Below are positions 1 through 21,298 of a stretch of 23,366 nucleotides of DNA, one piece after another. Source of the DNA: a virus. How positions within the stretch are numbered: position 1 is the first letter of the stretch; every line of letters begins with the position of its first letter. A model generated the notes under the pieces. That model worked only from the letters and a program-made list of their open reading frames with translations. It made no database searches and was not told where the DNA came from. The position numbers were made by a program, and so were the translations under genes. The DNA lies in IMG/VR virus record IMGVR_UViG_3300031227_004244, positions 1-23,366 of that record. One strand, given 5' to 3'.

Positions 1-418
1 TATCCACCGCCACAAAGTCAGCATTAGTCACAGTGTGTGAAGTTGCACTATTTGAATGATTGTACACAGTGTAATTGTATCTGTTTAGGACGGATGCCTG
101 TATTGTGCTGTCGGTTAATGTGCCTGCGTGGGTTACTGTCCCCGTAATATCTCCGATTATATCTCCAACAATATCACCGCCAAGGTTTAACGTAGTGCCA
201 GTTAAATTATCTATTGTGGCTGCGGCAATGCTCATAGCCTCACAGTAATCGTCCGTCCCGTTATAGAAGTTACCAAACTCATCATTCCATTCAGAGGATG
301 CAAAAATTTCATCATCCACAAGGGTTGCTTCTTGGGTTAATGCACCATAGCAAGGTAGAGATAAAAACAATATAAATAAAATCAACAGTATGTATATGGG
401 ACATTTTTTAATCATCAT
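1..418 (-). CDS. Tail fibre-like protein with signal peptide, 3' end cut by window edge
   Basis: Only the first 139 codons are in the window; the gene continues past position 1. It starts at ATG 418 or the adjacent ATG 415, overlapping the stop of the preceding fibre gene (410-408), so the two are probably translationally coupled. The N-terminus (MIKK, then a long Leu/Ile core, then LPCYG-ALTQ) looks like a Sec signal peptide. A short motif follows, VDDEIFASSEWNDEFGNFYN, which closely matches the preceding gene (VDENIPQVSSWNTEWGNIYN), so the two are tandem paralogues. Motifs of the type WNxEFxNIYN occur near the start of many phage fibre or tail-appendage proteins. Beyond it come Thr/Gly/Ile-rich repeats (GDIVGDIIGDITGTV) typical of beta-structured fibre shafts, and the start of a domain resembling the one at the end of the upstream paralogue. 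The fibre role is inferred from this and from the position at the end of the tail block. Confidence 0.75.
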   Translation of the reverse strand, partial: MMIKKCPIYILLILFILFLSLPCYGALTQEATLVDDEIFASSEWNDEFGNFYNGTDDYCEAMSIAAATIDNLTGTTLNLGGDIVGDIIGDITGTVTHAGTLTDSTIQASVLNRYNYTVYNHSNSATSHTVTNADFVAVD

Positions 419-1085
419 ATCCGTGGTTATAATATACCCAGCCTGAAGATACGCTGCCGTAAACACAGTTAACAGACACCATGTTAGTTACAGGGTTCGT
501 AGAGTCTGGGTATGAGGTTGTGCCTGAAGTTACAAAAGAAGCACCATTGCCTCTGAATAATTTACCGTTTGGATTAATTGTTAATCCATTAGTAGAGAAA
601 TAATCTTTTGCGTCTGTGTAGCTGAACACCCAACCCACAGAAGGTGAAGCAGGACATAATATTTCTACACCTCCACCAGTTGTATCTATAAGCAGGCTAT
701 CTCCATTACTTACAGTGTAGGGAGAAGCACCAACCGCAATAGCTGTATACTTAAAATGAGTAATAACATTATCATAATCAGCCCCCGTGATTGTAGATGA
801 ATCAATGCTAGAGCAAGTAGCTCCACCTGTGGTAGTTATTGTGGTAGCGTTAATGCCTCCGGTAAAGGTTGTGCCGGTCGTGGTTGTTATTGTCCCGTTG
901 GTTATGCTTATGCCTTCCAGGTAGTTGTCAGGGTTGTTGTATATATTCCCCCATTCAGTATTCCAACTGGACACTTGGGGTATGTTTTCGTCAACAACTG
1001 TCTCCACCTGGCTTAATGCGGCGTAAGCTTTTATTGAGATTACCGTTAAAGCTACCATCGTTAGTATGCATATAGTTTTTTTCAT
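408..1085 (-). CDS. Tail fibre-like protein with signal peptide
   Basis: This is a 225-residue protein. Residues 1-22 form a signal peptide (Lys-Lys, hydrophobic core, AYA cleavage box before ALSQ). Residues about 25-55 carry the WNTEWGNIYN motif shared with the next gene. About 60-105 is a Thr/Gly-rich stretch (GTITTTTGTTFTGGINATT) of fibre type. The C-terminal part from about residue 115 (YTVSNGDSLLIDTTGGGVEI, then CPASPSVGW) resembles the common phage fibre domain that usually reads GD-LLVDTSGG-LPASPS-GD. Its ATG (1085) overlaps the stop of the holin-like gene (ATGA). At 225 residues it is short for a complete host-binding fibre. It may be a short appendage, a tip, or an adaptor working with the following paralogue. 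A signal peptide is not expected on a protein assembled onto a virion in the cytoplasm. Confidence 0.75.
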   Translation of the reverse strand: MKKTICILTMVALTVISIKAYAALSQVETVVDENIPQVSSWNTEWGNIYNNPDNYLEGISITNGTITTTTGTTFTGGINATTITTTGGATCSSIDSSTITGADYDNVITHFKYTAIAVGASPYTVSNGDSLLIDTTGGGVEILCPASPSVGWVFSYTDAKDYFSTNGLTINPNGKLFRGNGASFVTSGTTSYPDSTNPVTNMVSVNCVYGSVSSGWVYYNHGYDD

Positions 1086-4300: not shown

Positions 4301-5175
4301 GCAATAGCACTGCCTAGCCCTCCAGCTTCTAAGATGTCACCGCCTGATTTAATAATATTAGCTCTCGTAAATTTTAGCTCTTTATTTAAATACTTTACGG
4401 CCTGGTTGCCAGTTTCGTCCGCAGACCAGAAAGCTCCACCGGCAGGTATCGCCTGTGTAGCCTTAGAGAACGCTTTCCCTGCTAACAAAGACTTTTCTCC
4501 AAGCCAAGTTGCTGCGGTTTGCGCTCCTGGAATATGTGGAGCTACAGCACTGCCTACAGCACTGGACACACCCATTAATCCAACTGTTCTTAACAATCCT
4601 CCAGATAGTTTTGCTGGGCCTGAAGCAACCCTTCCTTTAAACCCATGCTTTGCTGCTACCTCAACTGGCTTCTTCCAGCCCCACGCTGCGCCAGAAAGAA
4701 GCTTGGCCCCTAACTCTACCGCTGTTTTTGGTGATTCTGTAATAGCTTCACTGGCCACTTCTTTCGCTGCTTGCCTTGATTCTTGGTTAGTGATAATCTC
4801 AACTCCCCATTTATTAGCATAGTCAGCCCTTGCCTTTTCTAGTTCTTGGCTCTTTTCTCCTGCGTCATACCTCTTCAAGAGAGCAATCTTTTCATGTGCC
4901 ATTGTCTTTTGCTCTTCCACTGGAGGCATTGAAGCCCTGTTAAAGGGGTCTTTTATTTTCTCCCAAACAGACCGATTACTAGCCGCTTGCTCGCTTGTTC
5001 TTTGCCTTATTGCTGGGGGTACCTGGTCTTCCGGAACCTCTTGACTTAAAGTTTCCGCTTTTTGGCGTACCTCTAAAGGTACTTGGTTGTAAGGCACTTC
5101 CTGCATGGCATTAGCTGCAAGCTGTTGAATCTTTAAAGGGACTTTGTCTAATGGTATTTCTTGTATTTGTGGCAT
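1339..5175 (-). CDS. Giant internal virion (ejection) protein, T7 gp16-like in size and place
   Basis: At 1278 residues this is the largest gene in the window. Its place after the nozzle, GNAT-like and coiled-coil proteins and before the fibres matches T7 gene 16, whose product is ejected to form the trans-envelope channel. Residues 5-64 hold three 20-residue repeats of the pattern QE(I/V)PxxxVPxx(I/V)xQ. Residues about 160-320 are Ala/Gly-rich with hydrophobic helices (AKLLSGAAWGWKK, VGLMGVSSAVGSAVAPH, GLGSAIAVANILPYAP) that could insert into membranes. The rest is mostly helical and polar, with another Ala/Gly/Leu segment near residues 1020-1040 (ASAAGIMTLTAMLGGAYQYL). I see no clear lytic transglycosylase motif like that at the N-terminus of T7 gp16. 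ATG 5175 overlaps the previous stop by one base (TAATG). The ejection role is inferred from context, length and composition. Confidence 0.7.
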   Translation of the reverse strand: MPQIQEIPLDKVPLKIQQLAANAMQEVPYNQVPLEVRQKAETLSQEVPEDQVPPAIRQRTSEQAASNRSVWEKIKDPFNRASMPPVEEQKTMAHEKIALLKRYDAGEKSQELEKARADYANKWGVEIITNQESRQAAKEVASEAITESPKTAVELGAKLLSGAAWGWKKPVEVAAKHGFKGRVASGPAKLSGGLLRTVGLMGVSSAVGSAVAPHIPGAQTAATWLGEKSLLAGKAFSKATQAIPAGGAFWSADETGNQAVKYLNKELKFTRANIIKSGGDILEAGGLGSAIAVANILPYAPVRIPVAMLTRFGVEKVRAKGAPLDMQAKIKIGLQGVMATRTGTALTGQDISAHNKALMRTASQFLPPKFFALPIPEQEAFLDQTIKAMETMPISKAIPEAMRALKLDAVDVTTPDALRNIDDTSNAIKQATVEDFDPSLYRETLKINPSVFRQSIPKATIEGEVVPIKTVPIADEISGQPLDVRLPETKYPFLERDVIPKTKEFYGGVKKSTDWLKNTFNPLGKVKVSDQDIFFKHIGKYRHDKDMFFARGDATKSRLDARGDEKNLSWANKFENNRLDLMDTEELALAKHYKEFSEHLYGIVSQYKGINHLDNWLTHVYNKINGTDLEAPTTKEGFQRMKGSFEYKRVHSDLQSAIDTGLNPVINIEDAARIKYSEAIKFKMTQDLFTELQPKGGMDYFTKGNVPEGFVPIEEPIMKVYFPNHGAVGRGEHLYAQEDLARIINNHLSSDWLGKTAIGKGWQWTNRQMNLFNLSLSGFHFSNTNLHAAGQKFGEGMQDIVRGRPLQGVKNMLASPVAGPVKFVEGKRLINKMMAGNDPEAIKMAEDLYMGGGRTITPRDFNSRVAKFNTELKNKNYAGAIFRAPTALLEASLQPLMKHYIPAIKVSAFNESYKRGLEFYGDKIDAGLMTEGEVARMTWNQQDYLYGKMSKDNLFWDKTTEAAMEAFVRSTTYTLGTGKIFGGAAVDTSKIVKNLLTGNVKDIKFTDEQASAAGIMTLTAMLGGAYQYLHTGEEPQEFKDFYFPKNGQVDESGSPRRTKIMGYGTETIAWVRHPLRTAKHKLSPMFNAMAELITNEDYYGDMVRNPNAGILKQIYQTLKWGVGKFEPWSIKQARKDIEHDAPLLSRIEAATGLAQAPREWRQTQTEKNIFDLYKKQSGIDVRLTPEKRDIQKRKSAAMRELKKGESGEFIKLVSEGEIKNPLGWVSERLVPYPQGIFKRLTPDGKISALRGMNGKELIRYLPLVKDEKIVNMFTAKAR
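4984..5163 (-). repeat. Three tandem 60-bp in-frame repeats (20-residue QEVP..QVP units)
   Basis: The 5' end of the 1278-residue gene encodes three successive units of exactly 20 residues, starting at residues 5, 25 and 45: QEIPLDKVPLKIQQ, QEVPYNQVPLEVRQ and QEVPEDQVPPAIRQ, each followed by six variable residues. The conserved positions are Gln, Glu, Ile/Val, Pro, then Val-Pro four residues on and Ile/Val-X-Gln. The DNA has diverged more than the protein, so selection has kept the pattern. Possible roles are docking to several copies of a partner, such as the portal or another core protein, or packing of the ejection core. Neither is shown by the sequence. Confidence 0.8.
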
Positions 5176-6364: not shown

Positions 6365-7393
6365 CTATGAACTAAACCCGTATATTGCTCCAGCCACCGC
6401 CGGTATCACTAACGACAAACCAAAGGTCATTGGGGCCAAAGTTGCTCCGGTTGCCAGCGCATATCCACCAGCTACACTTGCTCCAAGCCCTGCTCCGCTT
6501 ATTGCGCCCTGAACTCCTTGTGCTGTCTGGTTAGGCCCTGGCCCTTGCGAAGATTGAACCCCTTGCGCCTGTCTTGCCTGTTGCATTTGATTAATTAAAT
6601 TAGTCATATTATTAGTTGGAAATACACTTGATGCTTGAGGTAAAGAACCTCCACTTTGCCCGCCACCACCTGAAATACCAGCAAGATTCATTAATGCGCC
6701 ATATTTCTGCCCGGTCTCGCTAGCTCCATAGCTCTCTGAAAACTGTCTCTGAGACTCAACGCTCTGCATGTTCTGTAAAGGTAAATCTAGCTGCTGCTGT
6801 AGGTTTAACGCTCTGCCCCCTCTTTCAGTTTTCCCTAGTTCACTTTGAATGGCTTCGGAAGAAAACGCAGTTGCGTTTCCTCCTGGCCTTAAACCTTCTG
6901 CCATAGACATCTGGCCAGTTTTCCCTTGCAGTGCTGCTTGCAGTCCCTTTAAGTCGCTTTGACCGGAAGAAACATACTCGTCTTCTAACCTACCAAGTTT
7001 TTCTTTTTGCTGTGGAGTTACCCCCTGGTCTTCGCCTCTTAATTTTGCTAAAGTTTTTTTAGCCAGGACATCTCTTAATTGAGACCGCTGGTCTGCAAAC
7101 TGATCTGGAGTTAAGCTTTGCTGTAATGCTCCACGTGCTTTGTTTGATAAGTCAAGCTGGCTACCTAATAATTTAGATTGGTAAGGTGCGAGTTCCTGAG
7201 TTAGCTCATTCCTTCGCCTTGTTTCCTGTATCTGTTCTTCCCCTAGCTCAAATGCCATCTTATTAGCTTCGAGCTGTTCTGGAGTTTGCTCTGGATATTC
7301 GGTTCTTTGGGTTGTGTTCCCTCCACCACCGCCACCGCCACGCTCATTTAAGACGGGCAACAAAAGTTTTTTTAAAAATGTTTTAATTTTCAT
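6365..7393 (-). CDS. Poly-glycine internal virion protein, paralogue 2 (T7 gp14-like position)
   Basis: This is a 342-residue protein. It begins with a short hydrophobic/basic helix (MKIKTFLKKLLLPVLNERG), then seven glycines (residues about 19-26), then Gln/Glu/Leu-rich helical coiled-coil regions from about 35 to 230. The C-terminus is Gly/Ala-rich and hydrophobic (GAISGAGLGASVAGGYALAT and on to the end, LSLVIPAVAGAIYGF), like a membrane-active segment. The N-terminal NERGGGGGG block and the following helix match the preceding gene, so the two are diverged tandem duplicates. Gly-rich starts followed by Gln-rich helices are common in podovirus proteins encoded next to the gp16-like gene. An ejected, membrane-interacting protein is a reasonable inference. 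The start ATG 7393 has a clear AAGGAG site. Confidence 0.6.
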   Translation of the reverse strand: MKIKTFLKKLLLPVLNERGGGGGGGNTTQRTEYPEQTPEQLEANKMAFELGEEQIQETRRRNELTQELAPYQSKLLGSQLDLSNKARGALQQSLTPDQFADQRSQLRDVLAKKTLAKLRGEDQGVTPQQKEKLGRLEDEYVSSGQSDLKGLQAALQGKTGQMSMAEGLRPGGNATAFSSEAIQSELGKTERGGRALNLQQQLDLPLQNMQSVESQRQFSESYGASETGQKYGALMNLAGISGGGGQSGGSLPQASSVFPTNNMTNLINQMQQARQAQGVQSSQGPGPNQTAQGVQGAISGAGLGASVAGGYALATGATLAPMTFGLSLVIPAVAGAIYGFSS

Positions 7394-7412: not shown

Positions 7413-8435
7413 TCATACTCTAGTGCTGGAAACGCTGTGACTCCTACCTATAGTGCTTGAAGCAGGCGATCTACCGCTTGAATATCCTCCCCCGCCAGAA
7501 CCAATAGGAGCCACATAACTATTAGGCAAACCTTGAGGTTGAGATGTCCCTCCTACACCAAAAGGCCCACCGCCATCATTGAGCCCTTCCCCAAGGCCAA
7601 TAGCCATGCCCCTCGCTATCGCGTCAGCTTTTCCTTGTGCCCCAGCATTTCCGTCTATCCAGTTAGTCCCAGGAACTTGATAGTCCATAAAGCTACCCAA
7701 TGTTGCAAACGGGTTTTGGTTAGACGTTAACGATCCATATAGATTTTGTTTATTAGATTGAGCCTGCTGGTTTAATGCCTGTTGAAATTGACTCATTCCC
7801 GTTTCAAATGTTTGTTGAGCTTGCGGTAGTTGCCATGCTGCATTAAACTTTAACTGCTCTATTCCTCTGCTTGCCTCTCCTGCATTACCTAAAGCTTGGG
7901 CTAACATTTTATCCTGAAATACATCTCGAATAGAGCTCGATCCTACGCCTCTACTCATTGCGGTCTTTTTGCTCTGTAACATCCCTGTTTTAAACTGTCT
8001 CGTTATTGCCTCGTTAGCATTTTGCTTATATAGACCAGCTAATTCATTTAAGTTTTGCTGTTGATCTGCAGAAAGCTCAGGAGTCTCACCAGCTAAATAC
8101 TTTTGCTGGTTACTTAACAACTCACCTTCTATCTGTTGATTCATCAAGTCTTGCTCTGTTGGTTTTAAGGCTGCTTCAAGCCCCTTATATGCCTGCTGCT
8201 GCCCTTCTAGCTGTTGCTGCATAGAACTCTTGATCATTGGCCCAAACTGGCTTAAAATCTCATTTTGGCGCTTTGCTTCATCAACCTGCATACGGGTGAT
8301 TTCGAGCTGTTGCTTCTGTATTGCTCTTTCTTCTTCTGAAGCTCCCGGCACAGTATTGGTTACAGTTGTGTGCCCTCCACCGCCACCGCCACGTTCGTTG
8401 TTTAATATATTCCACAAAAAGTTAAGATATTTCAT
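7413..8435 (-). CDS. Poly-glycine internal virion protein, paralogue 1 (T7 gp14-like position)
   Basis: This 340-residue protein is a tandem paralogue of the next gene. It has a short amphipathic or hydrophobic start (MKYLNFLWNILNNERG), six glycines, Thr/Val linker, then long Gln/Glu/Leu-rich helices (residues about 35-225, with QQQQAYKGLE-type runs). The C-terminus (about 250-340) is Gly/Ser/Pro-rich and low in complexity, unlike the hydrophobic C-terminus of the paralogue. The two copies have therefore specialised at this end. Its start overlaps the end of the GNAT-like gene by 14 bases. It is probably a virion core or ejection component, from position and composition only. Confidence 0.6.
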   Translation of the reverse strand: MKYLNFLWNILNNERGGGGGGHTTVTNTVPGASEEERAIQKQQLEITRMQVDEAKRQNEILSQFGPMIKSSMQQQLEGQQQAYKGLEAALKPTEQDLMNQQIEGELLSNQQKYLAGETPELSADQQQNLNELAGLYKQNANEAITRQFKTGMLQSKKTAMSRGVGSSSIRDVFQDKMLAQALGNAGEASRGIEQLKFNAAWQLPQAQQTFETGMSQFQQALNQQAQSNKQNLYGSLTSNQNPFATLGSFMDYQVPGTNWIDGNAGAQGKADAIARGMAIGLGEGLNDGGGPFGVGGTSQPQGLPNSYVAPIGSGGGGYSSGRSPASSTIGRSHSVSSTRV

Positions 8436-8838: not shown

Positions 8839-10461
8839 TTAATTTCCGTATTCTGTTTTCCCTGGGACGAGCTCAACTCCATATCCGTAAACATCACACC
8901 CAACATTTAAATCCTCTTGTTCTACTGTTAGCTGTAAAGTTCCGCCTGATCCTGAAATAGACTGTGATCTTGGTATTAATGTTCCACCACCCCAAGAGTC
9001 TATATCAAATTTAAAATCTCCAAAGACTCCACCGGCTCCGGCCTGTGTAAATGTCTCAAGTTCTGACCCCTGGTTGCCTATCCTGTAATAAACATCCATA
9101 ACATTACTGCCTTGAGGTTTTAAAAACATAAACAACTCTTTAAATAATTTATTTAAAGTTGCATCTCCAAAGGTAATGTATGGGGTAGAAAAGCTCATCT
9201 TGTACGCGGCCCCATTATCATTATATGTTGTCCTGTTTAATCTGTTCACATATCCATCATAGTTTCCTGCTAACAACTCTTCTGATCCTACTGAGTTCTT
9301 AACAACAGCAAAGCAAGAAGCGTCTATATTGTTCCACTTGCTCCATCTTTTCCCTGTATAATCGTACACAAAACAAACGGTGTTAGTGGTTTGCCCTGAC
9401 TCAGTAAAGCTCCAGATTATGTAATTTAAAGGTGTCCAAACTTTCCCACAACAATTGGCTAACTGTCCATGTGCTAAATTGTCAAAGTCTTTTTGTATAG
9501 GCGCACTTAAGTACGTAGCCTCAATGTCACCATATTTCTCTGTAGTGCTTAGTTGGTGGATTCCTTGATAAGATACCCAGAAAACATCTCCAGCATAAGA
9601 GACAATACATTTATTGTTCACCGCTCCAACATTAGGAAGGATAGGAGCGAGAGCAAAGTCATCATCAGATGTGCCGGATATCCCCCATAAACTATAGTCA
9701 GTAAAGATTAAATTGTAGCTATAAAAGTTACCTAATATCCCAGTTATCTTACCACCAAAATTATCTATAACGTCTATGTACCCTGCGTCATCTGCGGTAT
9801 TCCAATCATCATATGTATATCCAGCAGAATAAAATAATCTGTAGGGGTAAGATGGAACGCCGCCAGCCCATAATCTATTAGCGTGCGCCTCTATACAGGA
9901 AGGATAGAAGTCAACCCCTGTAGGCGTACCAGTTAGAACGTCAGTAGAGCTATTGCCTTGCTTCCAAACATGAGGTGTTTCTGCTCCATTAACAACAACA
10001 ACAGCGTCTTGAGTTGTGTCTGCTTTCCTGAGAACTGAGAAATCTGTTTGCTTGTTGACAGTAAATGGCCCGGACGAAACCATGTCCCATTCACCATCAA
10101 AATCATCCATCTTGTATAGCTTGGCATCACACGAACCAACAAGCTTTCTTGTTTCTGCTCCGGTAGTTGATATTGACCTAAAGTCATAAATGCCGGTAAA
10201 AGTATTTGACCCGCTACTTTCGGCAATTTGGTCTGTAGGGTTTAAATATGTAATTCCACCCCTTTTTTTTCTTGTACCTATATGGTCATATAAAACATTG
10301 TCTGCCTTAGTTAATGCCTTTGGGTTAAGAATTAACGGCGAGATAGAGGTGTTAAGCCCGTCCAAAGGAGGCATGAATAAATACTTCTTGCGTTCGCTCT
10401 CTGCAAAGGCAGGACGAACAACAAGGAACAGTAAAAGTATTAGCGTGGATAGTTTTTTCAT
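8839..10461 (-). CDS. Tail tubular protein B/nozzle-like protein with an N-terminal signal peptide
   Basis: This is a 540-residue protein. After residue 20 it has the usual start of podovirus nozzle proteins (T7 gp12, P22 gp10-like): PPLDGLNTSISPLILNPKAL, then KADNVLYDHIGTRKKRGG, the typical 'genes list the defaults, the coordinates, R-x-G' opening. The rest is beta-rich with many Gly, Tyr, Trp and Asp, as expected for a six-bladed nozzle. The oddity is the N-terminus: MKK, then a Leu/Ile-rich core and RPAFA-ES, a well-formed Sec signal peptide with an AXA cleavage site. A second possible start, Met30 (just before PPLDGLN), has no good ribosome site. The annotated ATG 10461 overlaps the preceding stop (ATGA), so translation from it is likely. 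A nozzle must dock onto the capsid in the cytoplasm, so a signal peptide is hard to explain. Confidence 0.85.
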   Translation of the reverse strand: MKKLSTLILLLFLVVRPAFAESERKKYLFMPPLDGLNTSISPLILNPKALTKADNVLYDHIGTRKKRGGITYLNPTDQIAESSGSNTFTGIYDFRSISTTGAETRKLVGSCDAKLYKMDDFDGEWDMVSSGPFTVNKQTDFSVLRKADTTQDAVVVVNGAETPHVWKQGNSSTDVLTGTPTGVDFYPSCIEAHANRLWAGGVPSYPYRLFYSAGYTYDDWNTADDAGYIDVIDNFGGKITGILGNFYSYNLIFTDYSLWGISGTSDDDFALAPILPNVGAVNNKCIVSYAGDVFWVSYQGIHQLSTTEKYGDIEATYLSAPIQKDFDNLAHGQLANCCGKVWTPLNYIIWSFTESGQTTNTVCFVYDYTGKRWSKWNNIDASCFAVVKNSVGSEELLAGNYDGYVNRLNRTTYNDNGAAYKMSFSTPYITFGDATLNKLFKELFMFLKPQGSNVMDVYYRIGNQGSELETFTQAGAGGVFGDFKFDIDSWGGGTLIPRSQSISGSGGTLQLTVEQEDLNVGCDVYGYGVELVPGKTEYGN

Positions 10462-11381
10462 ATTCTTTTAACTAAATCACCTATGTAATATCTTCTGGTT
10501 AGCTGCTGTCTGGTTAATCCCCTTCGCCTTCTTATCGCTGGAACCATTTTAATCTTATCGTCACCTGAAGCTGCTTTACCTAACATGCTTTTGAAGGCAG
10601 CGTAATACATTGCCATCGTTCTATCGCCAGCCTTTATATTGTCAAGTTTATTGTAATAAATATCTGCCATAGTCCCAAGCTTAAGAACATATCTTTGCTG
10701 AGAAGGGACAAGCGGTTCATCACTGTCTGCGCTTAGTAGTGTTATTTTTTTCTTATAATCTATTGATAAAAGTATTTGCCGGTAAGGAACCGGAGCTAAT
10801 TGTATTTGATATTCTGCGTCAGAACTTAACTCTAAAGGACACCAATAGTCAGGGTCTTGGTTAAAGCTTAAGCTCGAAGGGTTGTGCATTCTAAGCTGTC
10901 TGATTGTTATCTTTTCAAGCTGACGAGCTTGGCGGTACTGTCTTATAGAGATAATCTCTTCGCAGTTAGACGGCATAGTAAATTCATTCTCGAAGAGCGT
11001 GTAGGTTGCTTCAGTATTTGTAGTGCCGTTATATGCTGCGTTTAAAGTTAACTGTAAGGCCGAAACATAGGTAACAATATATTCTTCTTCAAAGGAACCA
11101 ACCTTGATCTTTCTGCCAGTCATTGCAGCAGTGAAAGTTGTGCCAGTGCCAACGACAGTAGTGCTTCCTTTTGTCACAGATATTGTTCCAGTTGTATATA
11201 TAGCCGTGGTTTGCTGTGGGTAGTCTATCTCGTACAGCCATCTCCACGGATAATGATTCGCTAATTCTTCATAGCGATTATTAACCCAGCCTTTTACTTT
11301 TGTTACCAGGGTTGTATCAGAAGTTTTTAACCCTGTTCTTGAGATTGAATCTTCGAATATATTCTTGAAAGTGTCACCCAT
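10458..11381 (-). CDS. Tail tubular protein A/head-tail adaptor-like protein
   Basis: This is a 307-residue protein. The opening (VTKVKGWVNNRYEELANHYP, WRWLYE) is the helical start common to podovirus tail tubular A/adaptor proteins (T7 gp11-like), which form the dodecameric ring under the portal. Residues about 62-130 carry an inserted beta domain of a type often seen in these proteins (GTISVTKGSTTVVGTGTTF, then GRKIKVGSFEEEYIVTYV and LTLNAAYNGTT). The core resumes at about 133 with LFENEFTMPSNCEEIISIRQ, and residues about 190-307 are helical with a basic end (PAIRRRRGLTRQQ). It sits directly before the nozzle gene, as in T7 (genes 11 and 12). It has a good AGAGG site before ATG 11381. Confidence 0.8.
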   Translation of the reverse strand: MGDTFKNIFEDSISRTGLKTSDTTLVTKVKGWVNNRYEELANHYPWRWLYEIDYPQQTTAIYTTGTISVTKGSTTVVGTGTTFTAAMTGRKIKVGSFEEEYIVTYVSALQLTLNAAYNGTTNTEATYTLFENEFTMPSNCEEIISIRQYRQARQLEKITIRQLRMHNPSSLSFNQDPDYWCPLELSSDAEYQIQLAPVPYRQILLSIDYKKKITLLSADSDEPLVPSQQRYVLKLGTMADIYYNKLDNIKAGDRTMAMYYAAFKSMLGKAASGDDKIKMVPAIRRRRGLTRQQLTRRYYIGDLVKRI

Positions 11382-11396
11382 TTCTATACCTCTGGA

Positions 11397-11903
11397 CTAA
11401 TATGGTCTTTCGCTAATACCCTGAAGGAGAATGTCTATTCCTCCTGTTGTGACATCGCAGAACATAAAGACATACTCTGCTTGGTCTACCACTAAAGAAT
11501 ATACCTGGTCGCCCGTTACGGTTGTGGCCGCTCCTGCAAAAAACTTAGCCCCAGACGATACGTAGTAATATGGTGTTACCGCTATGCTTGGAGTAGAAGA
11601 ATTAAACGTATCACAGGCCACTCTAAGGTGAGTATATCCTGAACAGTTAAAGACAGTATAAATAGCAGGATCAGAGTTAGGGTTATAAATTGTAGTTGGC
11701 AGTACCCCTGCTGCTTTAGCGGTCGCAATTGTGGCGGCATAAGTAGTTAGCGTTGCTGTTGAGTCATCTGAAGTTACTGCAACCCTGTGGTATACCGGAG
11801 GGCCAAGCCCGCTCATTCTTGTAATTGGTCTTTGTGCGCTACTGAACGCTACCGCCCCAAAGATCATTGCCCCTGCTAAAAACCCTATTAATGCCTTTTT
11901 CAT
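11397..11903 (-). CDS. Exported small protein of unknown function with signal peptide
   Basis: The start is taken at ATG 11903, preceded by a strong AAGGAGGG site at the right distance and overlapping the stop of the LamG-stump gene (ATGA). This gives 168 residues. Residues 1-24 are a clear signal peptide (MKKALIGFLAGAMIFGAVAF, cleavage at SSA-Q). The mature part is Thr/Ala/Val/Tyr-rich and probably all beta, with segments such as AVTSDDSTATLTTYA, VFNCSGYTHLRVACDTF and VTPYYYVSSGAKFFAGA. Such small beta-sandwich proteins can be capsid decorations, fibre tips or surface proteins. I do not recognise a family. Position between the capsid and tail blocks, and close to the O-antigen ligase-like gene, suggests an envelope or virion role. 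It is one of three signal-peptide proteins in this cassette. Confidence 0.7.
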   Translation of the reverse strand: MKKALIGFLAGAMIFGAVAFSSAQRPITRMSGLGPPVYHRVAVTSDDSTATLTTYAATIATAKAAGVLPTTIYNPNSDPAIYTVFNCSGYTHLRVACDTFNSSTPSIAVTPYYYVSSGAKFFAGAATTVTGDQVYSLVVDQAEYVFMFCDVTTGGIDILLQGISERPY

Positions 11904-12289
11904 GACCACCCTCCTTTTAATTTAAATTTCTTGTAGTTTAATCCATAATTCAACATCGTCAGGGCAGGAACTCCGTCCGTCCAGGAAGGATCGTTCGTGT
12001 CTGCCCCCGTGGTTGAGCCAAGCATTAGAGGGTTATCTTCTTCCCCTGAGTCTCCAAGCTCCTGGCCTGTGCCTTCGTCCATTTTCCAGTAGGCAAGGAG
12101 GCCGTTAGTTATAAAGTCGGCATCGTCCTCTAGCTTGTACTCGTCAAATCCATACTCAACGAACACATACTCAGAAAGAGCGTAATCTTCAGTTAGTTTA
12201 TACTCTCCGCTATACGCATTTCTTGCGCTTAAGCATATTGCCGAAGCCAGCAAAATGGTTACGAAGGCGAATGCTAATTTTTTCAGCAT
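11900..12289 (-). CDS. Exported protein with truncated LamG-like (concanavalin) domain
   Basis: The start is ATG 12289, two bases beyond an AAGGAGAG site. A longer reading to 12319 lacks this support. The product is 129 residues with a signal peptide of about 28 (MLKKLAFAFVTILLASAICL, cleavage near AYS-GE). A Tyr/Glu/Asp-rich stretch follows (KLTEDYALSEYVFVEYGFDE), then GLLAYWKMDEGTGQELGDSG, the typical first strands of LamG/concanavalin-A-like domains (GLVAYWxFDEGSG-DSSGNGN). The pattern then fades (WTDGVPALTMLNYGLNYKKF) and stops, where a full domain needs about 150 residues more. It is therefore a stump, either a worn-down carbohydrate-binding protein or a small protein reduced to one motif. 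Its first 80 bases overlap the 3' end of the O-antigen ligase-like gene in another frame. Confidence 0.65.
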   Translation of the reverse strand: MLKKLAFAFVTILLASAICLSARNAYSGEYKLTEDYALSEYVFVEYGFDEYKLEDDADFITNGLLAYWKMDEGTGQELGDSGEEDNPLMLGSTTGADTNDPSWTDGVPALTMLNYGLNYKKFKLKGGWS

Positions 12290-13499
12290 GACTCTCCTTT
12301 TTAACTCTATATTTTTCAATCATTCCTATGCAGATTATTATTAGTAAGCCTGTAGAAGCCAACCTGCAAGGGTAATACCCTAAACTATGCACAATAATTG
12401 CAGTTAATGAAGCCTTGTACTCAACTGGACATTTAATACAATATAAATTTACGAGGAAACATATAACAATGAACAACCCAATCACTCCCAGCTCACACCA
12501 GGTTTCCAGGAACTCATTATGAGCGTGAGAGCTTATCGTATCTGCTCCCTCAAGAAACTGATATTGAACGTATGTCCTTAGTCCTGTACCAAGGATGTTA
12601 TCTTTTAGTGTCCTTCTGTCTGTAGGCTTTCTGTTTACTTCTTTTTTGTATGTAAGAGACTTTTTCCAAAGGAAACTTCTGTATTCGTTTTTACTTAGCA
12701 AACTAAAAATATCCACCCATTGTTGTTTGCTTGTGTAAACATTACAAATATCTCCTACTGTAGTATTTCTGGTTATCTTACCTGAATAAATTACAGGCAA
12801 TAGCGCAAGGCAACAAACCAAAGACACTACTAAGACTACAGCCAGTTGCTCAAACTCTTTCTTTGCTATGAAATAAAAGGTTATCCCTGAATACATAGCC
12901 AGGATTGCCATTGAGGATCGGCTCCACAGCACTCCTATAAAAAGAACTGAAGCTGCCAGCTTGTTCAAAACATCCTTGCCGGACAGTGATAAAACTAAAG
13001 GTATTGCAAAGGCCAGAAATGCTCCGGCGATCCAGTACGCGTCCCGAACAAAATCCTGTCCAATCTTTATCTCGAAATTATTTACAATCCAAAACCAAAG
13101 CATTAAATAACTTGAAATAAACACAGCCAATTTAACGTAATCTTCATCAGCTTTTTTAACAAAGTTTATTAAATACACAGCAATACAAAGAGTTATGCAG
13201 ACAACCATTGTGTCTTTAGAGTAATTCCTGATTAATATCTCTCTGATTAACTTACCTTGCTGTACCCTGATTATTTGCCCTGTAAAAAAATCATGGTAGA
13301 TCGAGACACCTAAGCAATAAACAAGGAAGGTTTTAATCCAGACATTCTTCTGACAAAGAGCAAACAACAATACTGCTACTGAGGCCCACACTACAAACTG
13401 TGAGCCTCTAGCAAACAGATTTCCAAAAAACGGGAATTTAACAAGAGGAAGAAATAATATTAAGCTATAGAAAATTATATTTTTAGCTCTGGCTTCCAA
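12210..13499 (-). CDS. O-antigen ligase/polymerase-like (Wzy/WaaL-type) membrane protein
   Basis: This is a 429-residue protein with about ten hydrophobic segments and a hydrophilic stretch at residues 240-325, between two sets of helices. Two motifs mark the family: SRSSMAILAMYSG (about 193-205), after which the membrane part ends in KK, and the region 301-342, which reads NILGTGLRTY and then SSHAHNEFLETWCELGVIGL. The HxHNEFLExxxExGxxGL block is the diagnostic end of the large periplasmic loop in O-antigen ligases and polymerases. In bacteria these join or extend lipid-linked polysaccharide on the outer face of the inner membrane. The start is TTG 13499. The frame opens only one codon earlier (TAG CAA TTG), and the first internal Met is at 98, so no other start fits. 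The 5' end overlaps the previous gene by 17 bases and the 3' end overlaps the next by 80. Phage copies could alter the receptor or block superinfection. Confidence 0.85.
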   Translation of the reverse strand: MEARAKNIIFYSLILFLPLVKFPFFGNLFARGSQFVVWASVAVLLFALCQKNVWIKTFLVYCLGVSIYHDFFTGQIIRVQQGKLIREILIRNYSKDTMVVCITLCIAVYLINFVKKADEDYVKLAVFISSYLMLWFWIVNNFEIKIGQDFVRDAYWIAGAFLAFAIPLVLSLSGKDVLNKLAASVLFIGVLWSRSSMAILAMYSGITFYFIAKKEFEQLAVVLVVSLVCCLALLPVIYSGKITRNTTVGDICNVYTSKQQWVDIFSLLSKNEYRSFLWKKSLTYKKEVNRKPTDRRTLKDNILGTGLRTYVQYQFLEGADTISSHAHNEFLETWCELGVIGLFIVICFLVNLYCIKCPVEYKASLTAIIVHSLGYYPCRLASTGLLIIICIGMIEKYRVKKESHAEKISIRLRNHFAGFGNMLKRKKCV

Positions 13500-13899
13500 T
13501 TGCTACCCCACTTGATTCATAATCAAAACCAACCTCCCAAGGTAATCCATATCCATCCGTAGAACCGTCAGTGCTAATAGATGACCCACTTCTTGTCACT
13601 GTTCCAGACGAAAACCGAAACGTGCCATTAGCATCAAACCAGGTACAGTTAACTATCTGTGTTGTCCCGTCACCAGCAAGTGATTCATAGCACAAACACC
13701 CTGGAGCAAACAGGTTCTGTACATGTGATCCAGTTACGTCACTTGCAGCATTTGTCCCTCCACCCCTTAAAACTGTAACGCTTGGAAACGGAGCATTCTC
13801 TTTGCCAAAATTTCTTAATCCTGGAACCTGGGCAAAGGAAAACGCCGCAGACAATATAAACACTGACAACACTACTATGATTGATAGTATTTTTTTCAT
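13483..13899 (-). CDS. Exported small protein of unknown function with signal peptide
   Basis: The start is ATG 13899, with a strong AAGGAGAG site seven bases before it. This gives 138 residues. Residues 1-24 form a signal peptide (MKKILSIIVVLSVFILSAAF, SFA-QVPG). The mature chain is Gly/Ser/Thr-rich (VTVLRGGGTNAASDVTGSHV, then FRFSSGTVTRSGSSIST) with two close cysteines (GCLCYE) and probably forms beta structure. I recognise no family. It directly follows the major capsid gene. The reading frame stays open upstream through a separate, probably real, small ORF (14133 to 13900), so a longer product with a cytosolic N-terminal part could also be made. It overlaps the TTG start of the O-antigen ligase-like gene. 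Confidence 0.7.
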   Translation of the reverse strand: MKKILSIIVVLSVFILSAAFSFAQVPGLRNFGKENAPFPSVTVLRGGGTNAASDVTGSHVQNLFAPGCLCYESLAGDGTTQIVNCTWFDANGTFRFSSGTVTRSGSSISTDGSTDGYGLPWEVGFDYESSGVAIGSQS

Positions 13900-14195: not shown

Positions 14196-15110
14196 TTACG
14201 AAGACCCTGGACTACCCCAAGTAGGATACCAATCAGAGAACCCGTAATCAAATTCCTCTCCAGTAACTATAATTGTAGATTTATTCAACACCTGGTATTC
14301 AGCTACAGTGTTAAACTTTTCTTTGTTCACGAAGAACAATTTATGCTGCCTATTGCTTGCAGGAAATAAGAACCAGGCGTTAGGATCAGTTAAATTGATT
14401 AACTCAACATTGCTCATCCTTCTGCGATTCACTGCATTGATTGACCTATCTGAGGTGTCAGGCCTATCAGGGGACATAATGGTCTCTTCAACTATCCAGG
14501 TTAGTTGGTATGGATGCACTATTCTCATTGCCTGTGCATTCTTCTTAAAACCCTGGTCGTTAGTCATGGCCTTCACTGAATTTATTCCTGTCTGTAAAGC
14601 TGTGACAGAAAAATCTATCCCAACAGTAGGCCTGTTTGGTTGAGTACCTGCGATTCCATATAATGGGTGAGCGGTGGAGAATAAAGCTACACCATCAAAG
14701 CCTGTGTAAGCTCCACTGAACCCATTGTTAAGAACAGAGCAAAGCACTTCGTCCTTGTTCCCGACATGCGCCTCCTTGACATCGTAAGCTGACTGCCCTA
14801 GAGCAACCTGCTTTGGAATATCTCTCAGTAGTTCTTTCGTTAACTGAAGGTACAGCGAATAATCTTCAGGAACATACTGAGTTGAGGGTTTTGGGAACCT
14901 GTAAACAGGATTAGCCTCTGTGCCTTCAGGCCTAATACTTGGCCTTCCGACCCCTGTTACGCCAACATGATTGATGAAAGAGCCAGGGCATGGGACATCG
15001 TTAAACAACGATATTGCCTGGCTAAGATTTGGCATGTCGTCCTGCATTATTAGCTCAAGATTTGCTAATAAGGCTGTTGTTAAGGTGTCAAAATTTCCTC
15101 TTAATTGCAT
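14196..15110 (-). CDS. Major capsid protein (HK97 fold, Mu gpT-like)
   Basis: This is a 304-residue protein. The pattern fits Mu gpT-like HK97-fold major head proteins: an N-terminal helix (LTTALLANLELIMQDDMPNL), a spine region with FPKPSTQYVPEDYSLYLQLT, the FDGVALFSTAHPLYGIAGTQ motif at residues about 140-160 (the widely shared LFSTAHP of these capsids), and a C-terminal strand set (ITGEEFDYGFSDWYP-type end). The helix PAxN-like region FFVNKEKFNTVAEYQVLN and the Arg/Asn-rich NAVNRRRMSNVELINL sit in the middle. It is preceded by the scaffold-like and small head genes, and is followed by a hairpin. There is no sign of an N-terminal delta-domain protease site by eye. It has a good GGGAGAG site before ATG 15110. 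Confidence 0.85.
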   Translation of the reverse strand: MQLRGNFDTLTTALLANLELIMQDDMPNLSQAISLFNDVPCPGSFINHVGVTGVGRPSIRPEGTEANPVYRFPKPSTQYVPEDYSLYLQLTKELLRDIPKQVALGQSAYDVKEAHVGNKDEVLCSVLNNGFSGAYTGFDGVALFSTAHPLYGIAGTQPNRPTVGIDFSVTALQTGINSVKAMTNDQGFKKNAQAMRIVHPYQLTWIVEETIMSPDRPDTSDRSINAVNRRRMSNVELINLTDPNAWFLFPASNRQHKLFFVNKEKFNTVAEYQVLNKSTIIVTGEEFDYGFSDWYPTWGSPGSS

Positions 15111-17360: not shown

Positions 17361-19688
17361 TTAACCTCCCGTCCCAGGCGTTCCCCCTGGTGGCATATTA
17401 GGATTAGTCTTAGGTCTTTGTATGCCTCCTGGTTGCTGCATTGGAAACATACTTTCGCCCTGCTTCTGGGCAGCGTTCATAGCTGCTATCTTTGCCATTT
17501 CTTTACGTTGAAGTTGTGTCCGGTGTTGCAATATATGTGTCTTGAATAACGGCATCCTGTCTAGTTCTATTAGTGCAGCATTAGGAACCTGCACTCCGTC
17601 CATTTCCGTTGAGCCTTCGATAAAATCTTCTATCTTAGCTAAATGGTCAGGGTCATCATCCAGGACGTTAACTTCTATCTTCTCGCCCTGCATCATCTTC
17701 ATGTTCTCTATGTCCTGATCTTCTACAGGATTATTAGGAGGCTTTGTCAACATCTTATGATAGTAAGGAATTTCATAATCCAAGCATAGTTTTTTAGCCA
17801 TGTAGTAAATGTTGTGCGGCTGCACAATTCCTAACTGCAACATCATTGGGTTCATGAACTGTTGGAATAATAGAATGTCTGCCTGTCTTAAAAATTCTTT
17901 ATTTATATTGTCGATAGAGGTATTGAACGCCATGTCCGGCAAATCTCTCAGTTCTTCCTGTGTGATATCTAAGAACAACGGCTCTCCGTCCTCTCCCATC
18001 TGTCTAAAAATCTGTGTCTTTGGAGCGTATGCCCTCTCTAGTTTATATGCCTGCTTTAAGGCTTCTTTATATCCAAGCAGGAAACGTCTTAAAACCACCC
18101 TTGTTCTTATGTTTATTTCAGCTATTAGTTTTAATGTCGTCCCGACTGGCTGCCTTGAAGATTGCTGCTTCCCAAATGTTGCATCTGAGACTCCGGTTAC
18201 TTTCTCTGCAAACTGACCTTGAAGGGCAATGTCCTGTAAAGCAAAATTAGGGTTCTGCGGGAATTGCATGAACGCTAAATCGTCCATCTCGCCAACAGGC
18301 ACGAATGTTCCTGGTTCAATCTCAATCTTTTTATCTTCCATGTTTGACTGGGTGGAAGACCCAAGTTTAACCTTCCCCATTGGAGTAGAGATAAGGGTAG
18401 AATAATCAAGCCATAAGTTATAAGAAACATCGCTCCCCTCCTGTAAACTCTCCAGGCTTTCAGGGATACCAATACCCCAGATCGACTCTTCGTCCTCTAT
18501 GTCATAGTTAGAGAAGGTGAAAGGTCTCTCCCCGTGAGGGTAGATCATGTGTAAATGTCTTACGTTAGCTATCTTGTTTATCTTTGGAATGTAAGTTACT
18601 ATTATCTCTTCAAGCTTCCCTGTCCCTGAGATATCGTAAGAGTAAAAACATTTTCTTGCCCTGATTTCTGATATATACTCATTCCCAGTACTATCTTCAT
18701 CAATGCCCTGGTTATCTTTAACGACATCTGTTATTGGAGTATCGTTCTCGCTCTCCTTATCTGACTTGCATTTTTTTATTAACTCTATGTCCTCTTGCTT
18801 TAAGCTATCATAAACACCTTCTTTAAACTTAAAATCAATAGCGAAAGGATTTTCCGTGAATCTAAGTTGCACCCATCTGGCAGCTTGGAAGTCAGTTGCG
18901 TTTTGATCAAAGTAAATATCGTCAAGGTTAAGAGGCGCGATTTGCGCTCCGTCATACTTAACTGCCATTTTATGCTTATCAACATACAGCACCATATTAT
19001 CTGTGTCTGGATAGAAATCTAAGACCTCTTTGTCGTCTTTAGCCTTCACGTTACTATCTATCATCGTCTTTCTTTTAACTTTTATTTCATACTTGTATTC
19101 ACCTATAGTGCGATAATTAGCCTCTGCACCATACATCTGCACAACGACAGAGTTTACTTTTATATCGAAAGCCTGATCATCTGCAATGTCTTCCGGGGAC
19201 AGCTCAAATGTTTCAACTTCTATATTAGGTTTAATCTCTCGCTCGTAGTATGTGTAAAAAACCACTACCCCGTCTTGCGCTACCTTGTTAATGCTCCTGT
19301 CAAGATTGCGCTCATGGTTCTTGGTGTAGTTCTTGAGTTTACCGTTGAACCATTTTTCTTTCTTCTCTGTAGCCTCAACGTCCTCTCTTGATGTTGGTTG
19401 GAAGTGTACTATCTGCTCAGAGTCATGAATGGCCTCAAACATTTTTGCGGCTATTGCAGTCTTGTGGCTCTTTGTTATCGGCAGAGATAAGTCGGCCTGC
19501 CAGTCCTCTTTTTCTTTCCCCTTCTGCAAAAGGCCTTTAGTCTGCTCCTGAAATCTGGCAAGCTTAGTCCTCATGCCCTTAGAAGAAACGTCTATATCTT
19601 GATTATAGTCATGCTTAATCATTGCGCATAACTCTTTATTCTGTTTTTCTGTTAATTTAATCTTTTTGCTTTTAGTTGTGTTTATCAT
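17361..19688 (-). CDS. Portal protein
   Basis: This is a 775-residue protein. Its size and helical/beta composition fit the large portal proteins of P22-like and other podoviruses, which form the dodecameric DNA entry ring at one capsid vertex. A characteristic stretch lies at about residues 495-555 (VTGVSDATFGKQQSSRQPVG, then TTLKLIAEINIRTRVVLRRF), where a conserved Gly/Thr-rich tunnel segment is followed by a long helix. The region 400-430 (PHGERPFTFSNYDIEDEESI) is typical as well, a GERPF-type motif before the WGIGIPE loop. The C-terminal 35 residues are Met/Gln/Pro/Gly-rich and disordered. Its ATG 19688 overlaps the terminase stop (ATGA), the usual packaging order of terminase then portal. 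Confidence 0.9.
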   Translation of the reverse strand: MINTTKSKKIKLTEKQNKELCAMIKHDYNQDIDVSSKGMRTKLARFQEQTKGLLQKGKEKEDWQADLSLPITKSHKTAIAAKMFEAIHDSEQIVHFQPTSREDVEATEKKEKWFNGKLKNYTKNHERNLDRSINKVAQDGVVVFYTYYEREIKPNIEVETFELSPEDIADDQAFDIKVNSVVVQMYGAEANYRTIGEYKYEIKVKRKTMIDSNVKAKDDKEVLDFYPDTDNMVLYVDKHKMAVKYDGAQIAPLNLDDIYFDQNATDFQAARWVQLRFTENPFAIDFKFKEGVYDSLKQEDIELIKKCKSDKESENDTPITDVVKDNQGIDEDSTGNEYISEIRARKCFYSYDISGTGKLEEIIVTYIPKINKIANVRHLHMIYPHGERPFTFSNYDIEDEESIWGIGIPESLESLQEGSDVSYNLWLDYSTLISTPMGKVKLGSSTQSNMEDKKIEIEPGTFVPVGEMDDLAFMQFPQNPNFALQDIALQGQFAEKVTGVSDATFGKQQSSRQPVGTTLKLIAEINIRTRVVLRRFLLGYKEALKQAYKLERAYAPKTQIFRQMGEDGEPLFLDITQEELRDLPDMAFNTSIDNINKEFLRQADILLFQQFMNPMMLQLGIVQPHNIYYMAKKLCLDYEIPYYHKMLTKPPNNPVEDQDIENMKMMQGEKIEVNVLDDDPDHLAKIEDFIEGSTEMDGVQVPNAALIELDRMPLFKTHILQHRTQLQRKEMAKIAAMNAAQKQGESMFPMQQPGGIQRPKTNPNMPPGGTPGTGG

Positions 19689-21298
19689 TTTGCGTAACTA
19701 TACCGACCTTCAACGAGGTTTTTATATTTATACAACATATACTTTCTTGTGTGTTTCTCCAAATACCTTAAACAATCATGAGGATGCTCGTAATATCCTT
19801 CCTTTTTATACTTATGTGCTATTGCCCCGTCCTTACGTTTTTCAAAGGATAGGTTTCTAAACATCTCAACGCCTAAGGTGTTCGATCTGTTAACGATAAA
19901 ATTAGGGACTTTATGTTCTCTTAACTTAAGGTCGGCCCTTATAATCTTTACACTCTCAGGCTCAGTCTCGTCATTTTTAATCCTCTCGAACGTGTATCTT
20001 GGATATAAACCAAACGTATTCATTACCTGAATACTTGAACCTCTTGAACTCTTTTCCTGTACACCACCGTAAGCATCACAAAAATCATTAAATTCAATTT
20101 TTGTGTTAGAGTTAAAAAAGGGAAGCAACTGCTCTGCTTTTATTCTGTTGTATATATTTTTCGGTAAATATTCTCTTTTTTTATCTGAACCTACCCTGTA
20201 AAATTTAAGGTTTTTGTCAACCAGCAATTCCCCTGAAAGAAACATTCCTAGCCAGCACAGGTCTATATCATCTAAATCTGAACCAAGATATGTGTGCAGC
20301 CAAAGCATTTGATCTTGCTTGTTAATCTGCGCCCATATTATAGAGGGATGCCGATATCCGAAATCCCAAGCTCTAAAAGCAACACTATGTGGGTCAACTT
20401 CCAAGTCTTGGACGTGTATCCTATGGTTAAATTCCTTGTAATATCTTCCTGTGTAGTTTACTTTCTTGCCTTCAATTTGCTCTTCGTAAGCTTCTTCTGA
20501 CATCTGCCCTGTAGCTACTAGTTTAAGTAGCCTACTCTTTTCTTTCTCTACGTTTGGAGCCCAGTGAGGATTCTCATAACTTGGTGCTTCCCTACTAAAA
20601 TAATCTATTTCTGCAGGATTTTGCCCTAACTTATAAAAATCATCCATGAAATCACTAACATCAGAGCTAGTACTTGGGATAGACAGCCTTCCCTCTCTTG
20701 AAGTTAATGTTTGCTGTAAAAACTTCTCCCAAATCTCACGAAGAAATAACGATCCCTCTGACAGGATGATCCAGTCAAGTTCATCTCCAAGCAAACTTAC
20801 ACGATTATCGAAACTCTTAACAATTATCTCTACTGGTTGTGGGCTTAATCCAAGCTCTGGTTTCTGTAATGCTATATCGTAAGCCCAGTAAAACTTTAAA
20901 TACATCTGCCCCTGAACTGGGTTGTTAGTCTTGCGCTCAATCTTGTAGATCATGTCCTTTAGTCCACTCCTGGGGAACGTGGAGCCACCAAACAGAGCGT
21001 CCCAGATATACCGCCACTCTTTCTCTCCAAGAGAATAGTTAGGCGCTACAATCCATCCTCTACTGCCTGGAGTGCAGATTAAATCCATAACATCCATAGC
21101 AGCAAAAAGGCTCTTACCCCACCGCCTGCCTGAACGTATAGTTTTAAATCTACTTTCATTCTCGTGACAAATGATCTGTCCCGGATGTGGTTTATATCCA
21201 ATAATGTCAAAGAGCCCTGGTGTGTATACTCGCTCACCACTTTCGCTAACATCCCAACGACCGAGTTGGTTTTTTATCGCTACCTTTAGTTTGCCCAT
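19685..21298 (-). CDS. terL: Terminase large subunit
   Basis: This is a 537-residue ATPase-nuclease that pumps and cuts DNA at the portal. Walker A-like GRRWGKS is at 57-63. The Walker B region reads DWIILSE (175-181), where the usual Asp before the catalytic Glu is Ser. A motif like that of adenine binding/arginine (YSLGEKEWRYIW, about 88-99) lies between them. The nuclease domain starts with AWDFGYRHPSI (about 310-320), with the first acidic residue Asp312, then FCDAYGGVQEKSSRGSSIQV (about 407-424; Asp409), and ends with EHPHDCLRYL (about 504-513; Asp508). All parts needed for packaging seem present. It overlaps the zinc-ribbon gene before it (TAATG) and the portal gene after it. No standard small terminase gene is visible beside it. 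Confidence 0.93.
   Translation of the reverse strand: MGKLKVAIKNQLGRWDVSESGERVYTPGLFDIIGYKPHPGQIICHENESRFKTIRSGRRWGKSLFAAMDVMDLICTPGSRGWIVAPNYSLGEKEWRYIWDALFGGSTFPRSGLKDMIYKIERKTNNPVQGQMYLKFYWAYDIALQKPELGLSPQPVEIIVKSFDNRVSLLGDELDWIILSEGSLFLREIWEKFLQQTLTSREGRLSIPSTSSDVSDFMDDFYKLGQNPAEIDYFSREAPSYENPHWAPNVEKEKSRLLKLVATGQMSEEAYEEQIEGKKVNYTGRYYKEFNHRIHVQDLEVDPHSVAFRAWDFGYRHPSIIWAQINKQDQMLWLHTYLGSDLDDIDLCWLGMFLSGELLVDKNLKFYRVGSDKKREYLPKNIYNRIKAEQLLPFFNSNTKIEFNDFCDAYGGVQEKSSRGSSIQVMNTFGLYPRYTFERIKNDETEPESVKIIRADLKLREHKVPNFIVNRSNTLGVEMFRNLSFEKRKDGAIAHKYKKEGYYEHPHDCLRYLEKHTRKYMLYKYKNLVEGRYSYAK

Follow-up and report, generated by a model that had tools for sequence, protein, structure and literature searches.

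The Wzy-like gene of virus record IMGVR_UViG_3300031227_004244 belongs to the late structural operon in a broad set of tailed phages, where it is paired with a predicted leader on the tail stabilisation protein; this pairing, which arose at least three times, is new here. Phage O-antigen enzymes are known as optional lysogenic-conversion genes. Here, an O-antigen-type enzyme has a conserved place within the structural operon of many phages that are uncultivated and apparently do not integrate, and it travels with predicted leaders on tail proteins.

The window, i.e., the whole 23,366-base stretch of this IMG/VR record, contains one minus-strand late operon (Table 1). The operon starts with resolvase and lysozyme-like genes, followed by the genes for the terminase, the portal, scaffold-like proteins and the capsid; after the capsid gene come a small gene (13899-13483), the Wzy-like gene (13499-12210), two further small genes (12289-11900 and 11909-11397), the adaptor and a stabilisation/nozzle-type tail protein. 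The region beyond the stabilisation gene encodes a small protein where phage Mx8 has its acetyltransferase, two glycine-run paralogues, a 1278-aa protein and two fibre-like proteins with predicted export signals. The paralogues (6365-7393 and 7413-8435) are adjacent, each starts with the glycine run NERGGGGGG, and they are probably ejection or internal virion proteins; the 1278-aa protein (1339-5175) carries three short repeats (QE[IV]P...VP..[IV]RQ) at its N-terminus. The capsid call is weak by profile and is backed by position and by relatives: a 30% identical counterpart is encoded ahead of the Wzy-like gene in the nearest relative (L002), a record that also matches phrog_371.

Table 1. Features of the late operon in the window (coordinates on the 23,366-base record)
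Feature	Coordinates	Strand	Basis
Terminase large subunit	19685..21298	minus	phrog_2 3.7e-16
Portal protein	17361..19688	minus	phrog_1216 3.6e-36
Major capsid protein	14196..15110	minus	phrog_371 4e-4, Mu gpT 0.004
Putative exported partner, 138 aa, predicted Sec signal peptide (MKKILSIIVVLSVFILSAAFSFAQ)	13483..13899	minus	sequence, Shine-Dalgarno
Membrane protein of the Wzy_C / O-antigen ligase superfamily (429 aa; starts at TTG)	12210..13499	minus	PF04932, AF2, Foldseek
Putative exported 129-aa protein, predicted Sec signal peptide	11900..12289	minus	sequence, Shine-Dalgarno
Putative exported small protein, predicted signal peptide (MKKALIGFLAGAMIFGAVAFSSAQ)	11397..11909	minus	sequence
Adaptor (SU10_adaptor), without signal peptide	10458..11381	minus	PF24175 1.1e-10
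Tail stabilisation/nozzle-type protein, predicted Sec signal peptide MKKLSTLILLLFLVVRPAFA^ES	8839..10461	minus	phrog_5107 7e-31, phrog_3287 1e-23
Tail-fibre-like protein, predicted Sec signal peptide	408..1085	minus	phrog_31104 / phrog_5939 tail; N-terminus
Second tail-fibre-like paralogue, predicted Sec signal peptide, truncated at the edge of the window	2..418	minus	N-terminus

The first-pass annotation had placed an O-antigen ligase/polymerase homologue between the major capsid and tail genes, overlapped by both neighbours. The position of the gene stands, with the minus strand now assigned, the capsid gene upstream and the adaptor and stabilisation protein downstream; the overlaps are real as well, but the starts of both neighbours are corrected to later ATG codons with Shine-Dalgarno sequences. 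Specifically, the upstream neighbour begins at an ATG with AAGGAGAG and its stop overlaps the start of the Wzy-like gene by 17 nt, and the gene downstream begins at an ATG with AAGGAGAGTC and overlaps the 3' end by 80 nt. A 33% identical counterpart of the upstream protein directly precedes the Wzy-like gene in L002. The 129-aa protein has no Pfam match, and the next small protein matches neither Pfam nor PHROG. The TTG start of the Wzy-like gene is credible because a 41% identical homologue from another phage begins at the same place, with the common start M-E-x-R-A-K.

The analysis confirms that the 429-residue multi-span protein belongs to the O-antigen ligase superfamily, as had been proposed from its motifs (H-A-H-N-E-F-L-E...E-L-G-V-I-G-L, S-R-S-S-M-A and G-T-G). 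A Pfam scan identifies PF04932 (Wzy_C) with 38.1 bits (cut-off 31.7), and a six-frame scan of the window with 49.2 bits. The AlphaFold2 (AF2) model, built template-free from a 41-sequence alignment that consists solely of phage proteins (pLDDT 77, pTM 0.80), has 12 membrane helices, with the HxHN motif (residues 325-328) at the end of a large loop that joins helix 9 to helix 10. A Foldseek search of the PDB started with this model identifies WaaL (7TPG) as the best match (E 3.4e-4, probability 1.00, TM ~0.43) and the only one below 0.001; RodA comes second with E 0.21, and assignment to another multi-span family was accordingly rejected. A sequence search of the PDB gives no match, and in a Pfam scan extended to E 1 PF04932 is the only hit, with neither PglL_A nor PglL_B detected.

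H325, H327 and N328 are invariant across the 41 phage Wzy_C sequences, in part by selection, because all except the nearest relatives of the window protein were fetched with a pattern demanding HxHN. The motif corresponds to the catalytic-loop histidine, H338 in E. coli WaaL; the conserved loop arginines of that enzyme are R215 and R288. The arginine of the RxxxW motif is retained in 40 of the 41 phage sequences, the exception being the window protein, with S257 at this position; R244 may stand in for it after an insertion. The FPxH motif common in the other proteins is also missing from the window lineage, so that its activity could differ from that of the other Wzy_C phage proteins.

A motif scan over 2.9 million viral contigs, which detects only proteins with the HxHN...E.G..G motif, yielded 57 stretches, and multi-span Wzy_C proteins are encoded in about 49 contigs; seven loci whose ORFs are soluble and match the motif by chance (L078, L085, L093, L097, L102, L111 and L123) were dropped. 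PF04932 is present in all 49 records and exceeds the cut-off in 44. A capsid gene lies at most 1.7 kb upstream of the Wzy-like gene in 25 of the 49, with at least three capsid families represented (phrog_9953 in 19, phrog_371 in 5 and phrog_334 in 1); these include G095 (phrog_9953, across a presumed circular junction) and G082 (phrog_371, with only a fragment of the Wzy-like gene). In 15 records, the adaptor gene follows immediately or a short distance downstream. In L073, a predicted exported protein and the Wzy-like protein are encoded ahead of T7-type tail genes (phrog_394 and phrog_376), with no capsid identified in this contig. The gene directly upstream of the Wzy-like gene has an exported or lipoprotein N-terminus, as predicted, in 27 of 35 viral contigs, counting related contigs as separate cases, compared with 23% of the other ORFs of these contigs.

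The nearest relative, IMGVR 3300031227_000722, shares with the window the order capsid - predicted exported protein - Wzy. The Wzy-like proteins of the two phages are 41% identical and the capsid, portal and terminase proteins 30%, 36% and 48%, respectively, indicating that the gene diverged together with its phage. Relatives detected through the terminase at 23-33% identity (L011-L068) have little in common with the window beyond this gene and say little on the operon. Several other features of the relatives deserve mention: this nearest relative of matching gene order also encodes a lipoprotein-like 221-aa protein (L002 665-1330) adjoining its lysozyme, a beta-barrel protein of the outer membrane (DUF481; L009 4959-5693) and, on the minus strand (L009 305-1060), a 251-aa protein of ~11-residue repeats (QISWLTKAQISYLTKVQ...); and in a 40-kb relative, IMGVR 3300031772_000096 (L146/L145), at least five predicted exported tail-region proteins are encoded, with a lipoprotein before the Wzy-like gene.

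These comparisons leave very little probability for a single recent capture of a host O-antigen gene by one phage, or for an annotation artefact. The GC content of the gene (0.37) is slightly lower than that of its neighbours (0.39-0.43), and the gene is absent from more distant relatives, as a chance acquisition would predict. Yet the 41% identical homologue is found at the corresponding location in another phage, although the capsid proteins of the two are just 30% identical; the same order recurs in 24 further contigs; and a pattern search of 84,980 genomes finds no close bacterial relative, only four weak ones. With the order conserved in 25 contigs and at least three capsid families, chance insertion was rejected, and the gene is a regular member of the late operon, as the first-pass annotation had maintained.

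Six late-operon proteins of the window carry predicted Sec signal peptides, namely the stabilisation protein, both fibre-like paralogues and the three small proteins encoded around the enzyme (Table 1); the signal peptides were assigned by visual inspection and with a home-made rule, and export itself is a prediction. Sec signal peptides on late-operon and tail proteins are very unusual for a tailed phage, and we found nothing on point about exported tail proteins of such phages in the openly readable literature. The leader is absent from the capsid, portal, adaptor and terminase proteins. On the stabilisation protein, it is predicted in all 18 readable phages with the Wzy-like gene compared with none of 22 relatives that lack the gene, including Mx8, Mx9, BUCT555, HMO-2011, CRP-207 and several groundwater phages. 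The leaders end in AxA-like sites (e.g., MKKLSTLILLLFLVVRPAFA-ES in the window, MKKLLLTLFLSLSLTCGFA-QE in L103 and MKKLLIIALLLFSSKAYA-QE in L128), and the homology between stabilisation proteins begins just past the leader, at residue 29 in the window. The fibre-like proteins follow the same pattern with the single exception of MW202554, where the fibre (L158, 8494-9519) and a small protein (3958-4452) have predicted signal peptides in a phage without a Wzy_C gene; if this leader is functional, export does not require the enzyme.

A tree of the stabilisation proteins, built after removal of the leader residues, contains at least three changes of the Wzy/leader state, forced by well-supported branches, and a single clade of leader-bearing proteins from phages with the enzyme is rejected (p-AU 8e-8). 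Mixed pairs on this tree unite the window with MW202601 and L092/L128 with MW202524, the MW phages in both cases lacking the enzyme. The enzyme thus co-occurs with tail proteins that are putatively exported at three distinct positions on the tree. The Fisher value for the association, which ignores kinship, is 9e-12; the three independent contrasts, all in one direction, are suggestive and too few for significance alone.

The enzyme and the signal peptides could also be functionally unrelated adaptations to a particular host type, e.g., one with a thick surface glycan, an explanation of the co-occurrence that we consider quite unlikely. All phages found with the gene are uncultivated, the enzymes of the window, L103 and L128 have no match among 50,697 INPHARED records, and the fibre leader of MW202554 occurs without the enzyme, all of which would fit a shared host type; such an origin accounts poorly for the predicted exported gene directly upstream of the enzyme in 27 of 35 contigs, in phages of at least three capsid families.

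The interval between the capsid and stabilisation genes takes cargo in which glycan-related genes recur, given that it holds GT4/GT8 cytosolic glycosyltransferases and methyltransferases in the groundwater phages MW202524 and MW202512, which have neither the enzyme nor the leader (L157 285-6883 and L165 3768-5637, respectively; MW202512 also has an HNH endonuclease), and a holin and endolysin in Stenotrophomonas phage BUCT555 (L134 8209-8945, between capsid and adaptor). The conserved place of the gene, its pairing with the leaders and the glycosyltransferases in the same interval of relatives without it lead us to favour, tentatively, a role of the protein as a WaaL/Wzy_C-type glycan transferase in the inner membrane that moves host glycan onto one or more exported phage proteins; export, catalysis and acceptor are all inferred. 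Enzymes of this superfamily work at the periplasmic face on Und-PP-linked glycans, which WaaL transfers to lipid A-core. By analogy, these phages would attach Sec leaders to the outer tail parts (stabilisation/nozzle protein and fibres) and to the small proteins whose genes flank that of the enzyme; host glycan would be taken by the enzyme from its undecaprenyl carrier in the periplasm and would pass to the exported phage proteins in the manner of PglL or PilO. The PglL-type enzymes and WaaL have PF04932 in common, and for 21 of 31 PglL-type enzymes the gene adjoins that of the exported pilin target; PilO, which lacks the PglL motifs, modifies an exported protein encoded next to it (PMC3643930). 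A predicted exported protein is likewise encoded beside the window enzyme and may be its acceptor; given exported neighbours and exported tail parts, phage proteins would be natural acceptors. No acceptor motif shared by the partner proteins was seen. A more specific version, in which outer virion parts are Sec-exported and glycosylated in the periplasm by a phage oligosaccharyltransferase of the WaaL superfamily, with the last assembly steps outside the cytoplasm, appears rather unlikely. A point against the favoured reading is that an exported tail part would have to join a cytoplasmic head.

The small flanking proteins with predicted leaders, the leaders of the tail proteins and their repeated pairing with the enzyme, none of which the first-pass annotation had noted, make exported phage proteins as good a candidate acceptor as the host surface. 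There is a real possibility that the enzyme instead remodels the surface, as that annotation had suggested, with O-antigen or capsule units of the host polymerised or ligated in another way at a late stage of infection. Released progeny, or fibres of the phage itself in the periplasm, would then not bind to receptor polysaccharide on the dying cell, or superinfection would be prevented. The closest solved structure is indeed that of an LPS ligase, and the fibres, if exported, would give self-adsorption a reason. Wzy-beta transfers Und-PP-linked glycan onto another glycan unit, and the Wzy-beta of phage D3, with Iap, alters surface polysaccharide, as is also seen for epsilon15 (PMC4815439); the prophage polymerase WzyPh1 alters the linkage of the Acinetobacter baumannii capsule (PMC9241936). 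These cases are lysogenic, but 36 of 37 records with the Wzy-like gene besides the window lack a tyrosine integrase (many of them, like the window, are fragments), which argues against classical lysogenic conversion and fits the contrast with it drawn in the first-pass annotation. Furthermore, no inhibitor of the host polymerase was recognised, and surface remodelling alone leaves unexplained both the adjacent small proteins with predicted leaders and the place behind the capsid gene. If, as we tentatively prefer, tail parts are glycosylated, virions may bear the host's own sugars, and if these parts are truly exported, assembly of tailed phages would not be purely cytoplasmic in these lineages; if the cell surface is altered instead, the system would represent a lytic form of receptor masking.

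Among the known systems, WaaL (PDB 7TPG, PF04932) resembles the phage enzyme in fold, helix layout and the histidine motif HxHN in the loop before helix 10, but the two are only ~14% identical, WaaL is encoded in an LPS locus and the phage enzyme in a late operon next to predicted exported phage proteins, and the window protein has S257 at the RxxxW arginine, with R244 perhaps serving as the second conserved arginine. PglL and PilO (PMC3643930) belong to the same superfamily and are similarly encoded beside, and co-oriented with, a small exported protein; unlike these, the window enzyme is phage-borne, lacks PglL_A and PglL_B and would have an acceptor other than pilin. The Wzy-beta proteins of D3 and epsilon15 (PMC4815439), VG_p25 of VarioGold (PMC9658991) and WzyPh1 (PMC9241936) are phage-borne polysaccharide polymerases or ligases as well; the former three also have a Wzy_C domain, and the relatives of WzyPh1 are EpsG-like. 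All are from temperate phages, for which exported tail proteins are not described, and lie in moron or seroconversion cassettes (in the D3 type, with a polymerase inhibitor and an acetylase, away from the structural genes), in contrast to the window gene, which lies between capsid and adaptor inside the structural operon. The gene order itself, terminase - portal - capsid - adaptor - stabilisation - acetyltransferase, is that of Myxococcus phage Mx8 and also of Mx9, BUCT555 and ppBjS10J-1; the Mx8 module differs from that of the window in having no Wzy gene and a stabilisation protein without a signal peptide, and in BUCT555 the holin and endolysin occupy the interval.
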